Below, piece after piece: positions 19,258 through 23,350 of a stretch of DNA of 40,301 nt; the stretch's first letter is position 1; every line of letters starts with the position of its first letter. The notes under the pieces are model-generated. The model saw only the letters and a list, made by a program, of their open reading frames with translations. It did not search any database and was not told the DNA's origin. This stretch comes from a virus, in the IMG/VR virus record IMGVR_UViG_3300047562_002308, positions 1 through 40,301 of that record, one strand, 5' to 3'. The position numbers and the translations under genes were made by a program.

Positions 19258-20388
19258 TCAGGAAGTTGGAGCAGATGCATCAGCATATGCAACTGCGTCA
19301 AGTTCCTCCCATGTGATGCCTAGACGGACGAATACTGTGTACTCAATTGTGTCCTTCTTGGCCTGGTACTCACGGTTTACTGTGATATCGCGCTGGAAGC
19401 CCCATACACGGTTGCTTGGGAATGTCAAATCGACATAATCAGCAGGGTAGTAGGGAACCTCAAGAACGTCAACACCGAGAACGCGAGTTACGTTAGCATT
19501 GCCTAGTGTCTGGCCTGCACCATCAAGGTAAGCCTGACGGTTGCGCTCTGTGCCAGCAACGCGGGGATCAAATGCTGCTGCAATAGCATCAGCAAGTGTT
19601 CCGTTGTTAGCAACGATACCAGCGAATGCGTCTGTGCCTGCGTAGAACTTAAGATTGCTCTTAACTGCGCGGTACTTGCGTGGCATTGCGTAGATGATCT
19701 GCTGCATTACTTCTGGTGTCCAAGCATTGTTGGAAACAGAAACTACTGCCTCATGAGCATCGCTACCACTGGTAACCTGATGAACGAAGCCGTCCCAAAT
19801 TCCGAGGAATGGGTCAGCACCTCCATCACCATTGATAGCAAGATCCTCAATATCGTTAGCAAATGCATTGGTCATCAAACGAACGAGATGATCCTCTAGT
19901 GCGCCACCTTCGATGTTGTCTTCAAGTGACTCTGTTGAAACCTCCCAGTCAAGGCGGATCTTTGTTGTTGTAAGTTCTACCTTTGTGAAGGTTGCACCAG
20001 CGTTATCATATGTGCCTAGTGCCTGAGCAGCAGCACGGATAACGCGCTCACCAACGTTAACCTTCTCAATCTCCATTGTGTTTGCACGCATTGTAACTCT
20101 GCGACCATCGTTAGCAAGAACGGTTGCGTCCCATACATAGTCGATGAATCGGTTAGCCTGCTCTGGGTTTAGGAGACCGCTAAGTGTTCCTGTTGGATTA
20201 ACGGCGTTTGGGCCTGATGTAACACCGTAGTTAGCATTTGGGATATTGCCCAATACGCCAGCAGCGGGGTCTGATACGCCACCGATGCCTCCAGCGGCTA
20301 CTGCGCCCTGACCCTGGTATAGACCTGGGTTTGGATCACCGTACTCGCCTGAGTCTGATGGCTGATTCTTTAGGATTTCTTCTGACAT
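19258..20388 (-). CDS. Major capsid protein (HK97-type fold expected)
   Basis: A 376-residue shell-forming protein, directly after the protease/scaffold gene. The N-terminal 60 residues are Gly/Ala/Pro-rich and disordered-looking (GLYQGQGAVAAGGIGG). They are followed by features usual for capsid subunits: ERVIRAAAQALGTYDNAG, LTTTKIRLDWEVSTESLEDN (a spine-helix and strand region), GDGGADPFLGIWDGF, and a C-terminal strand region VWGFQRDITVNREYQAKKD. ATG at 20388 has a near-perfect AGGAGGTGA. Codons end in G or C far more often than in the neighbouring large tail genes, expected for the most abundant protein. A strong hairpin follows the gene. Confidence 0.92.
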   Translation of the reverse strand: MSEEILKNQPSDSGEYGDPNPGLYQGQGAVAAGGIGGVSDPAAGVLGNIPNANYGVTSGPNAVNPTGTLSGLLNPEQANRFIDYVWDATVLANDGRRVTMRANTMEIEKVNVGERVIRAAAQALGTYDNAGATFTKVELTTTKIRLDWEVSTESLEDNIEGGALEDHLVRLMTNAFANDIEDLAINGDGGADPFLGIWDGFVHQVTSGSDAHEAVVSVSNNAWTPEVMQQIIYAMPRKYRAVKSNLKFYAGTDAFAGIVANNGTLADAIAAAFDPRVAGTERNRQAYLDGAGQTLGNANVTRVLGVDVLEVPYYPADYVDLTFPSNRVWGFQRDITVNREYQAKKDTIEYTVFVRLGITWEELDAVAYADASAPTS

Positions 20389-20410
20389 TTACTTTCACCT
20401 CCTGTATTCT

Positions 20411-20941
20411 TTATTTAAATAGGTCGGACTTGTTGAGGAAACGACCGCCCCATAGAGATTTTTGAACCCTTACGGGCTCTTCCTGTACGATCTCTCCGAG
20501 ATCGCCAGACTTACGGAAAGCAGTATCTGATTCCACTGCATCTACTCGCTTTCCAAACTCTTCATATGAACTCTTTACTTCCTTGACCTCCTGGCTTACG
20601 CCAGCAACCTCCTGGGAAACACCAGTGATTGTCTTATGAAGATCCTCTACCTTTTCATTAAGAGCCTTCATGGTCTCAGCAAGAGTTTCTATGGCTGAAG
20701 TTACAGTCTCAGTTACAGTCTTAAGAACTTCATTTTCTGTTGCCTCTACTGACTTTTCAGTTTCTTCAACTTGTTCTGCTGTCTCTTCTGACATTTCAAC
20801 AGACTCTGTATCCTCAGAAGTTGTTTCCTCTTCTGCCTTAGCGACAGCCTCATCCTCTACAGGAGTGTCCACTGTCTTCTCAACTTCCTCAGCAGTTTCT
20901 ACAACTTCTGCCTCAGGAGTTTCAATATTTTCTTCTGTCAT
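20411..20941 (-). CDS. Nested in-frame scaffold protein (internal start)
   Basis: The protease reading frame contains an ATG at 20941 (residue 245, MTEENIETPE) preceded by AAGGAGGT at 20956-20949 with 7 bases between. This is a perfect Shine-Dalgarno sequence, better than that of the full gene. It would give a 176-residue acidic, Val/Glu/Thr-rich protein with a coiled coil (VEDLHKTITGVSQEV) and a basic tail, typical of internal scaffold. The arrangement mirrors lambda C/Nu3, where the scaffold is the C-terminal part of the protease made from its own start. Separate expression is inferred; the sequence of the site is direct. Confidence 0.75.
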   Translation of the reverse strand: MTEENIETPEAEVVETAEEVEKTVDTPVEDEAVAKAEEETTSEDTESVEMSEETAEQVEETEKSVEATENEVLKTVTETVTSAIETLAETMKALNEKVEDLHKTITGVSQEVAGVSQEVKEVKSSYEEFGKRVDAVESDTAFRKSGDLGEIVQEEPVRVQKSLWGGRFLNKSDLFK

Positions 20942-21673
20942 CTTGCTTACCTCCTTTTCATCATTTTTCATTCTATTTAAAATAGTCTTGACTACATCTG
21001 CCTTGTCTGCATCATTGGACTCAACAAACCCTATGTTTTGCATACCTTTGTCGCAGCGTGGGCAGTCGGAAGAAGCATTGGCAGAAAGTTGAACAAGATC
21101 ATCGCTGCTGCACCAATAAACATTCTCAATTGATGCTTTAGCAAGATAGCCACCTTCATGGTTTTTCTCTATGCTGATAACATTTGCATATTGGTTTGCT
21201 GGATTATCAACAAGAGAAAGTTCATATAGTTCATAGTCCTTGATTACTCTAATGGACTTATCCATATCTTCGTTGTAAACATCTTCTGTTTCTTTAATGT
21301 TGCCCCCGATAGAAAAACCAGTTAGGGTTCCATCAAGAACCTTTTCCCAGGTATCCTGAGCACCCTTGCTTACATATGCAGAAACATAAACACCATTGTA
21401 AAATTTCTTTTCCTCTGGATCAAAGTATTTGTCTTCTTTGAATGAAACAACTTTGCCTACCGCGATTTGTTGATGCATCTCTCTAAGATTGCCACGAAAG
21501 GTTTTGAAAGCCTTTAATGATGCATCACTAGGAACAATGTCGCCCTGCCTGTCTATATTGTCAAGCGTGGCAAAACCAGATACGATTCTTCTCTCTTTGT
21601 CTACCTTGGCAATTGGCATTGAAAGTTTAATGTCATTGCCGTCGCTAGACCAATGAGCCTTAGACATATTCAT
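20411..21673 (-). CDS. Prohead maturation protease with C-terminal scaffold region
   Basis: A 420-residue fusion of a capsid maturation protease and a scaffold. Residues 1-170 look like phage serine proteases of the XkdF/U35 kind: VSGFATLDNIDRQGD (31-45), a conserved His in LREMHQQ (His67), and a Ser in LTGFSIGG (Ser121), followed by ELYELSLVDNPAN. Residues 186-215 carry Cys188 and CPRC (Cys204, Cys207), a partial zinc-knuckle look. From residue 245 the protein is highly acidic and then coiled-coil, the usual scaffold composition. ATG at 21673 follows AGGA with 4 bases; an ATG two codons later is an alternative. An internal start at 20941 probably makes the scaffold separately. Confidence 0.85.
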   Translation of the reverse strand: MNMSKAHWSSDGNDIKLSMPIAKVDKERRIVSGFATLDNIDRQGDIVPSDASLKAFKTFRGNLREMHQQIAVGKVVSFKEDKYFDPEEKKFYNGVYVSAYVSKGAQDTWEKVLDGTLTGFSIGGNIKETEDVYNEDMDKSIRVIKDYELYELSLVDNPANQYANVISIEKNHEGGYLAKASIENVYWCSSDDLVQLSANASSDCPRCDKGMQNIGFVESNDADKADVVKTILNRMKNDEKEVSKMTEENIETPEAEVVETAEEVEKTVDTPVEDEAVAKAEEETTSEDTESVEMSEETAEQVEETEKSVEATENEVLKTVTETVTSAIETLAETMKALNEKVEDLHKTITGVSQEVAGVSQEVKEVKSSYEEFGKRVDAVESDTAFRKSGDLGEIVQEEPVRVQKSLWGGRFLNKSDLFK

Positions 21674-21682
21674 ACTATCCTA

Positions 21683-21691
21683 ATTATATCA
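21683..21691 (-). promoter_or_regulatory. Extended -10 promoter element TGATATAAT before protease gene
   Basis: TGATATAAT on the minus strand, in the 48-base gap between portal and protease genes. It ends 9 bases before ATG 21673, so a transcript from it would begin within a few bases of the start codon, near-leaderless. Confidence 0.5.
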
Positions 21692-21721: not shown

Positions 21722-23350
21722 CTATTGTGTTCTTCTACCCTCGCCAGCAGGATTTCTGCCAGTTGTTGTAGCAACACTATCAGAGTTATTGTTCATTCTT
21801 TCAGCATCTCTTTCACGGTTTTGCATAGTGTTTGCCCTGGCATCTGCTGCTTGACGAGCACCAAGAACTAGTGGCTCTTCGCCGCTAGGAATTTGTGGAA
21901 GATCAATTTTTGCTCTTGCTTCATTTGGAAGCATAATCTGATTCTTTACATAACGCTCAAGAATTTGTGCTTGTGCAACTTCATCTGTTAGAGTTAGTTC
22001 GTTAAACTTTAACTCAATAATGTCTGTGAATTCAGAAATTATTTTAGCAACTACCTTTTCTAAATGTCTTTGTGCTGGTCTGGCTACTTGTTCTTTGAAT
22101 GTACGATCATTTGCAAGTGCCGCCGCGAGAGAGCCAGAGGTTGTTCCAAGTTTAGACAAAGGAACCTGATGAGCCATAAGTATATCGTCACGGTTCTTTG
22201 TTCTATATTTATCAAAAGATGCTTCTTGAACACCATTTTCTACTGGATGCATCTCAAACTCTGGACTATTACCATCTTGATCAGCAGGTAGTGGGACATA
22301 TAGTGTTCTGTGATTTTGTCCCTTCAAGCCAGTTTGCAAGAACCTGAACAGTCTATCTTGTGACTCACCACTGAGTGTTGCACCCTTTGTCACAACAATA
22401 TAACGTGGAACAGCCTTATTTTCAAAGTAGTCAATATTATATTGTGCAGCCATCTGGTCACCCTGAAGTGCTGTATAGGCTGAAATAATGTCGGGAACAC
22501 CGTAGAACGTGTTAAGTGGTGAATAAGACTTGAAATGAATAACCTCGTTTGGACGAGGATCGTTAGTAACAGGATTTGGATTTGTTGCAGCAAAGTTTCT
22601 AAAATAAACAACTTTACCGCCAATAATTTGAATAAAGCCATCACGAATTCTACGGACACGCATTGTTGTAGAAGGAATATGACCAATATAGCCAATTTCT
22701 CCGTTTACCTTGCGACCAACCTCCATATATCCGTTACCAGTTGATTCAACATCTGTCATAATTTTTTCCATGATGTTGATAAAACTATCTTCGTCATTTA
22801 GGCTTTCTAGCCAATCTCTTGCCTGAATTTTAAGACGCTCAATTCTCTTTCTGGCCCTACCAGCCTTGCCCTCGTCTTCTTCATCCTCAAGGCGTAACTT
22901 AACGGGGTTTGAGATCTCAAACATATATCCAAGACCAACAATGTTTTGTACCTTGGCATCTACCGCCGCATGGTTGGCAAAGTTTGTATCATAAAAGTTT
23001 GCAAGTTCATAAAGATTATATGGTGGAGTGATTACGTCAAAAATACCGTATCCGTTTCTCCATACCTCTCCAGGGTTGATTTGCTTAGATCCAGTATCTT
23101 CTTGTCCTACTGCCCTTACGCCTGCGGCCTGAGCATATGCAGGAGATATTTGTCCCTGATTGTTGCGAGGAACATCATAAACCTTTTCCATCTTGTTTTC
23201 ATTACGAGTTGTTCTGCGTCTAAAGTTTGTATCAATTCCGTCAAAAGATTTTAAATCTTCCCATGACTTAGCAAAAGGATCAAGTTCTTTAAACTCATTT
23301 ATCTTTTCAAGATTTTCATCTTCGAATGCTTGAATATGATGATATTCCAT
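21722..23350 (-). CDS. Portal protein
   Basis: A 542-residue portal, forming the ring through which DNA enters and leaves the head. Recognised by the block RPNEVIHFKSYSPLNTFYGVPD (about residues 267-288) followed by SAYTALQGDQMAAQYNIDYF and AVPRYIVVTKG, which is typical of HK97/SPP1-like portal proteins. A C-terminal region rich in Arg/Asn/Gln (ANTMQNRERDAERMNNN) is the usual flexible barrel/crown end. The ATG at 23350 overlaps the stop of the upstream small gene by one base (TAATG), with no ribosome-binding site, so it depends on coupling. Protease and capsid genes follow, confirming the head module. The terminase that normally precedes the portal is not next to it. Confidence 0.93.
   Translation of the reverse strand: MEYHHIQAFEDENLEKINEFKELDPFAKSWEDLKSFDGIDTNFRRRTTRNENKMEKVYDVPRNNQGQISPAYAQAAGVRAVGQEDTGSKQINPGEVWRNGYGIFDVITPPYNLYELANFYDTNFANHAAVDAKVQNIVGLGYMFEISNPVKLRLEDEEDEGKAGRARKRIERLKIQARDWLESLNDEDSFINIMEKIMTDVESTGNGYMEVGRKVNGEIGYIGHIPSTTMRVRRIRDGFIQIIGGKVVYFRNFAATNPNPVTNDPRPNEVIHFKSYSPLNTFYGVPDIISAYTALQGDQMAAQYNIDYFENKAVPRYIVVTKGATLSGESQDRLFRFLQTGLKGQNHRTLYVPLPADQDGNSPEFEMHPVENGVQEASFDKYRTKNRDDILMAHQVPLSKLGTTSGSLAAALANDRTFKEQVARPAQRHLEKVVAKIISEFTDIIELKFNELTLTDEVAQAQILERYVKNQIMLPNEARAKIDLPQIPSGEEPLVLGARQAADARANTMQNRERDAERMNNNSDSVATTTGRNPAGEGRRTQ

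Follow-up and report, generated by a model that had tools for sequence, protein, structure and literature searches.

A conserved internal ribosome-binding site predicts a scaffold protein nested in the prohead protease gene of a phage and its relatives

Where is the capsid scaffold encoded in phages for which the named records that we examined annotate only a capsid maturation protease, with no scaffold gene in its own right between those for the portal and the major capsid protein (MCP)? We addressed this question in a 40.3-kb virus record, the whole stretch of DNA analysed here (the window), whose head genes, all on the minus strand, are portal, protease and MCP in that order:

21722..23350, minus strand: portal protein gene, directly upstream of the protease gene (Pfam Phage_portal, E 2e-29)
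20411..21673, minus strand: full-length protease-scaffold gene, 420 aa (ORF; Pfam; phrog_9427)
21161..21613, minus strand: S78 serine protease domain, residues 21-171 (Pfam Peptidase_S78, E 1.3e-7, also S78_2)
20396..20403, minus strand: Shine-Dalgarno (SD) sequence AGGAGGTG of the MCP gene (duplex energy -16.2 kcal/mol)
19258..20388, minus strand: MCP, 376 aa (Pfam Phage_capsid from residue 72)

The head maturation protease family phrog_9427 matches residues 1-418 of the protease-scaffold protein (E 5e-124), and the Peptidase_S78 profile scores above its curated cut-off (32.3 bits vs 21). Residues H67, S121 and S153, invariant among 36 relatives, are candidate His/Ser residues. Among named phages, the closest to the window are large siphophages that infect Streptomyces (family Stanwilliamsviridae) or Rhodococcus, and the proteases of the Streptomyces phages are about 43% identical to that of the window over their whole length, suggesting that the host of the window virus is likely actinobacterial. 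A search of bacterial genomes for relatives found none.

The initial annotation had proposed that a separate scaffold is made from the protease gene, using an SD sequence placed 7 nt before an in-frame ATG at residue 245. The arrangement was confirmed on the minus strand (20956-20949 and 20941-20939), and the predicted features are as follows:

20949..20956, minus strand: internal SD AAGGAGGT, kept in 73/73 unique genes from the window and IMG/VR
20939..20941, minus strand: internal start codon ATG, codon 245 of 420; ATG in 73/73, ATG or GTG in 18/18 distant relatives
20411..20941, minus strand: predicted separate scaffold, 176 aa (48 D/E, 18 K/R), ORF from the internal ATG

The spacer reads AAGCAAG, and the duplex that AAGGAGGT forms with the anti-SD (-12.3 kcal/mol) ranks first among those of 300 internal in-frame ATG/GTG codons from 31 genes of the window. 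The window holds 3 copies of the octamer, where 1.05 are expected. An equally good internal site arises in 5% of codon-order shuffles of the window gene and in 29% of synonymous shuffles, which often recreate it because the protein already reads K-E-V-x-x-M. A single sequence is therefore weak evidence, and it is conservation that carries the claim.

We looked for relatives that keep the protein and lose the site, and found none among the close and intermediate ones: site and ATG are retained in 81/81 genes (the window and 80 IMG/VR loci, 50-87% protein identity; 73 unique), which, being related to each other, count as fewer than 81 independent tests. Of the six peptides used for the search, one overlapped the site, as a degenerate back-translation; the loci outside the window's clade are without that peptide. 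The first codon of the site is AAG (70) or GAG (3) and the Glu codon is GAG in all 73 unique genes, while in the family as a whole GAG makes up 35% of Glu codons and AAG usage is 53%. The third codon varies (GTA, GTT, GCA, GAA), always with G as its first base, as expected if only AAGGAGG is needed, and the residues neighbouring the site vary as well. The claim that the two codons for KEV are fixed needs small corrections: KEV is three codons, and neither the third base of V nor V itself is constant. In a ranking by synonymous conservation the site is among the invariant codons, yet within the sampled clade further parts of the gene show the same invariance. The argument rests instead on a change of reading frame.

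This change was seen in 18 more distant genes, from 12 Streptomyces phages, 4 Rhodococcus phages and two metagenomic loci (L113 and L114). The Streptomyces phages comprise two subfamilies (Wofford, Coruscant, NootNoot, Mildred21 and EGole; Karp, Gilson, Faust, TunaTartare, Annadreamy and Wakanda) plus Ankus. The Streptomyces phages, the Rhodococcus phages Weasels2, Peregrin and Trina, and L113 and L114 all carry AAGGAGGT, AAGGGAGGT or a close variant where the protease domain meets the C-terminal one. The distant relatives read the site as E/K-G-G and the window group as K-E-V, so that the two groups do not share amino acids there, and the GGAG core lies at codon position 1 in 18/18 distant genes vs position 3 in 73/73 window-group genes. 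All 18 have an ATG or GTG in frame downstream, at a distance suited to initiation. Duplex energies in the distant genes range from -11.8 to -14.9, except in the R. equi phage Dorin and its near-copy Francesca, the weak cases, where AAGGAG stands 11 nt from a GTG (-7.6 kcal/mol). A ribosome-binding site that is kept while the amino acids are lost and the frame is changed argues for selection on initiation: as judged by this comparison, the internal site is selected for translation initiation, not for protein sequence, and the internal start has existed long enough for its reading frame to change. We consider it very likely that internal initiation at codon 245 is real and ancient.

Because the site falls exactly at the boundary between the protease and the C-terminal domain, it might be supposed that an internal SD-like sequence only slows ribosomes there, aiding the folding of the protease, with no second protein being made. 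Pausing, however, needs no start codon, and an ATG or GTG stands in frame at initiation distance in 91/91 unique genes (ATG 80, GTG 11, nothing else), at a spacing that is constant within lineages; the residue in this column is M or V, only where both codons can initiate. We regard pausing as an improbable explanation, and internal initiation as the preferred one.

What would the internal start produce? The C-terminal part of the protein is acidic and less conserved than the protease part (66% vs 80% mean column identity). In the AlphaFold2 model residues 239-313 are disordered and precede a long helix, and a short motif stands near the C terminus:

20510..20737, minus strand: predicted single long helix, 76 residues (313-388), AlphaFold2 model with pLDDT about 50-70, the models being shallow and of modest confidence in the scaffold part
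20435..20452, minus strand: WGGRFL motif, residues 408-413, kept in the A1 alignment

The Streptomyces and R. equi phage versions of the motif are WGGHFL, WGGRFL or WGGIF, and it probably serves as a contact for the capsid protein. A fold search of the protease-scaffold model against the PDB gave no meaningful match, and a profile search of PDB sequences returned only chance matches to coiled coils. In the window MCP no scaffold (delta) domain was recognisable by sequence, and its AlphaFold model (pLDDT 31) was unusable; its N-terminal arm, ahead of the Phage_capsid match, is 70 residues long and rich in G/P/A/N, and only about 20 residues precede the same point in Streptomyces phage Ankus. 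By contrast, in the T5-like Vibrio phage Ceto the S78 protease, at 202 aa, has no such extension, and the 465-aa MCP carries a long N-terminal region that looks rich in helices. This contrast, an MCP without a visible scaffold and the lack of an annotated scaffold gene together mean that the scaffold function is most simply given to the C-terminal half of the protease gene. The domain boundary, the acidity, the predicted helix and the absence of another scaffold suggest that the 176-aa product is likely the capsid scaffold. The proposal of a separate scaffold is thus supported by the conserved site and its shifted frame in distant relatives, the scaffold role itself being deduced.

How the two products would be balanced is suggested by the other end of the gene, where we found two features that the initial annotation had not mentioned: a weak SD and a conserved -10 box. 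The SD duplex of the full-length start is weak, with a median of -3.1 kcal/mol for 72 genes (vs -12.2 internally), and a box lies immediately upstream:

21683..21688, minus strand: -10 box TATAAT, separated from the protease ATG by 9 nt

TATAAT ends 8-10 nt before the protease ATG in 29/30 distinct upstream regions, where shuffles gave a mean of 0.2 and a maximum of 3, and the box is often extended (TGnTATAAT). At gaps of 5-11 nt before the MCP starts it was found in 0/30. In the Streptomyces phages 6 nt separate a -10-like box from the protease ATG, several having a TTG-type -35 at 17 nt; in the Rhodococcus phages the gap is 9 nt, and Weasels2 has TTGACA-17-TATACT. With a looser motif, the box was present at 9/10 protease starts vs 15/66 other starts of the Streptomyces and Rhodococcus phages. 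Other TATAAT promoters in the window precede SD-led genes, so the box itself is not unique, and the evidence lies in its fixed distance to the protease start across relatives. With ordinary spacing, a box this near would put the transcript start roughly 0-3 nt upstream of the protease ATG. A leaderless gene is marked in sequence by a very close -10 box and the lack of a good SD; the protease start has both, making it plausible that the protease mRNA is leaderless or nearly so. In mycobacteria, themselves actinobacteria, leaderless transcripts are common (PMC4633059). Elsewhere in the window, the gene at 31676-30834 (minus strand) lacks a good SD (-3.7) and carries TATAAT 6 nt upstream of its ATG, which makes it a second leaderless candidate. 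We also considered a consensus promoter for a separate scaffold mRNA and rejected it: the position list of the window holds no TATAAT just before the internal start, and such an mRNA is not supported.

We propose, with considerable confidence, that one reading frame encodes two proteins, a 420-aa protease-scaffold and an abundant 176-aa scaffold from the internal start. Initiation at codon 1 would give a minor 420-aa S78 prohead protease fused to the scaffold domain, and initiation at codon 245 via the internal AAGGAGGT would give the scaffold without the protease, its abundance being presumed. Through the common C-terminal domain, the scaffold would build the prohead and draw a few copies of the protease inside, where the protease would digest the scaffold before packaging. 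The -10 box at 21688-21683 would yield the leaderless or near-leaderless mRNA from which the protease is translated, and the two starts would thereby differ in their mode of initiation. Whether these modes set the protease:scaffold ratio seems to us an evenly balanced question: the long form would be leaderless from a dedicated promoter and the short form SD-led from within, and transcripts reading through from upstream would yield scaffold and capsid protein and little protease, an arrangement kept across actinobacterial phages about 43% identical. If the leaderless start is true, it offers a simple way to fix this ratio without a regulator.

Phage P2 encodes protease and scaffold in one gene (PMC8508860), and following gpO of that phage the C-terminal scaffold could be made only as a fusion and freed by the protease, which could cut at the same boundary, the internal start being unused or minor. 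This route leaves unexplained both the conservation of the SD across two reading frames and the very weak protease start, and we give it little weight against separate initiation at codon 245. Internal SDs stimulate programmed frameshifting elsewhere, as in prfB and dnaX, and the same role was considered here; both other frames close within 0-9 codons, at points that differ between relatives, there is no apparent slippery run and no overlapping ORF on the same strand, and we rejected this reading as extremely unlikely. Finally, the site as a chance by-product of K-E-V-x-x-M, the reading to which the synonymous shuffles lend some support, is refuted by the invariant codon choice and the recurrence of the site in another frame with other amino acids, and its probability is negligible.

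The preferred reading, two proteins from one frame, has a parallel in λ, which the initial annotation had cited as the precedent. In the layout the likeness holds: as annotated in NC_001416, the λ protease gene C lies upstream of the capsid genes and contains an in-frame 3' scaffold with the same stop, an overlap for which PMC8508860 cites Shaw and Murialdo 1980. In protein lineage it does not, since λ C belongs to Peptidase_S49, the window protein to S78, and BLASTP detects no similarity. The strengths of the starts are also reversed: in λ the SD is strong at C (-11.3) and weak at the annotated nu3 start (-6.9), whereas in the window it is the internal SD that is strong and the upstream one that is weak. 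Within the 3' half of λ C, the best SD with an ATG belongs to codon 309 (-10.8) and not to the annotated nu3 start (codon 239). As in such nested genes, the window gene has an in-frame internal start with a ribosome-binding site, the same stop and an N-terminal prohead protease, and by its sequence it appears to work like λ C/Nu3 from outside the λ C protein lineage.

Phage Mu is similar in its annotated layout: the protease gene I contains an internal Z start with the same stop (NC_000929 annotation), with a weak SD at I (-1.9) and a better one at Z (-7.4), although the latter is much weaker than in the window family. The HK97/T5-type phages share the S78 protease family (the Ceto protease matches Pfam S78), but their scaffold (delta) domain is in the MCP, whereas that of the window would be at the C terminus of the protease and its MCP shows no visible delta domain. 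In herpesviruses, the C-terminus of UL26 is described in PMC2949831 as containing the whole of UL26.5, a scaffold nested in frame in the 3' part of the protease gene. The likeness to the window does not extend to expression. UL26.5 has its own mRNA; the window would use an internal SD, and its separate promoter, if real, would be that of the long form. Shigella virF also gives two proteins from one gene, one of them by leaderless translation (PMC5101355), but there it is the short form that is leaderless and in the window it would be the long one.

In the literature, searched mostly through papers outside subscription, no account came up of these phages having an internal start for a scaffold. 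The 176-aa product is a candidate for the missing scaffold of a large group, 127 Streptomyces and 9 Rhodococcus phage records having been matched together with hundreds of stretches of environmental contigs, and the nested protease/scaffold layout would occur also with S78, a protease family unrelated in sequence to λ C.

Three further features were noted. In the clade of intermediate relatives (L008-L080), AARTTCTTAGTTGATAGTGCTAAAGGCATT, found some 20-50 nt ahead of the internal SD, is almost invariant, including at synonymous sites; it is absent from the window's clade and has no clear second copy in the loci. In Roseobacter phage CRP-6 (L096, 2677-4181) the annotation divides the S78 protease between two overlapping ORFs, gp55 ending just after an AFSIGG motif and gp54 continuing with ELSLVDRPAN and an acidic tail, a split that may reflect a frameshift, a sequence error or another route to a separate scaffold. 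Near the 3' end of the window gene, about 100 nt before the start of the capsid gene, an RNA hairpin (20482-20509, minus strand; CGATCTC-GGA-GAGATCG, folding z -3.5) is kept in nearly all relatives, with one compensatory change of C-G to G-C (L049, L075), and could be a processing or regulatory element.
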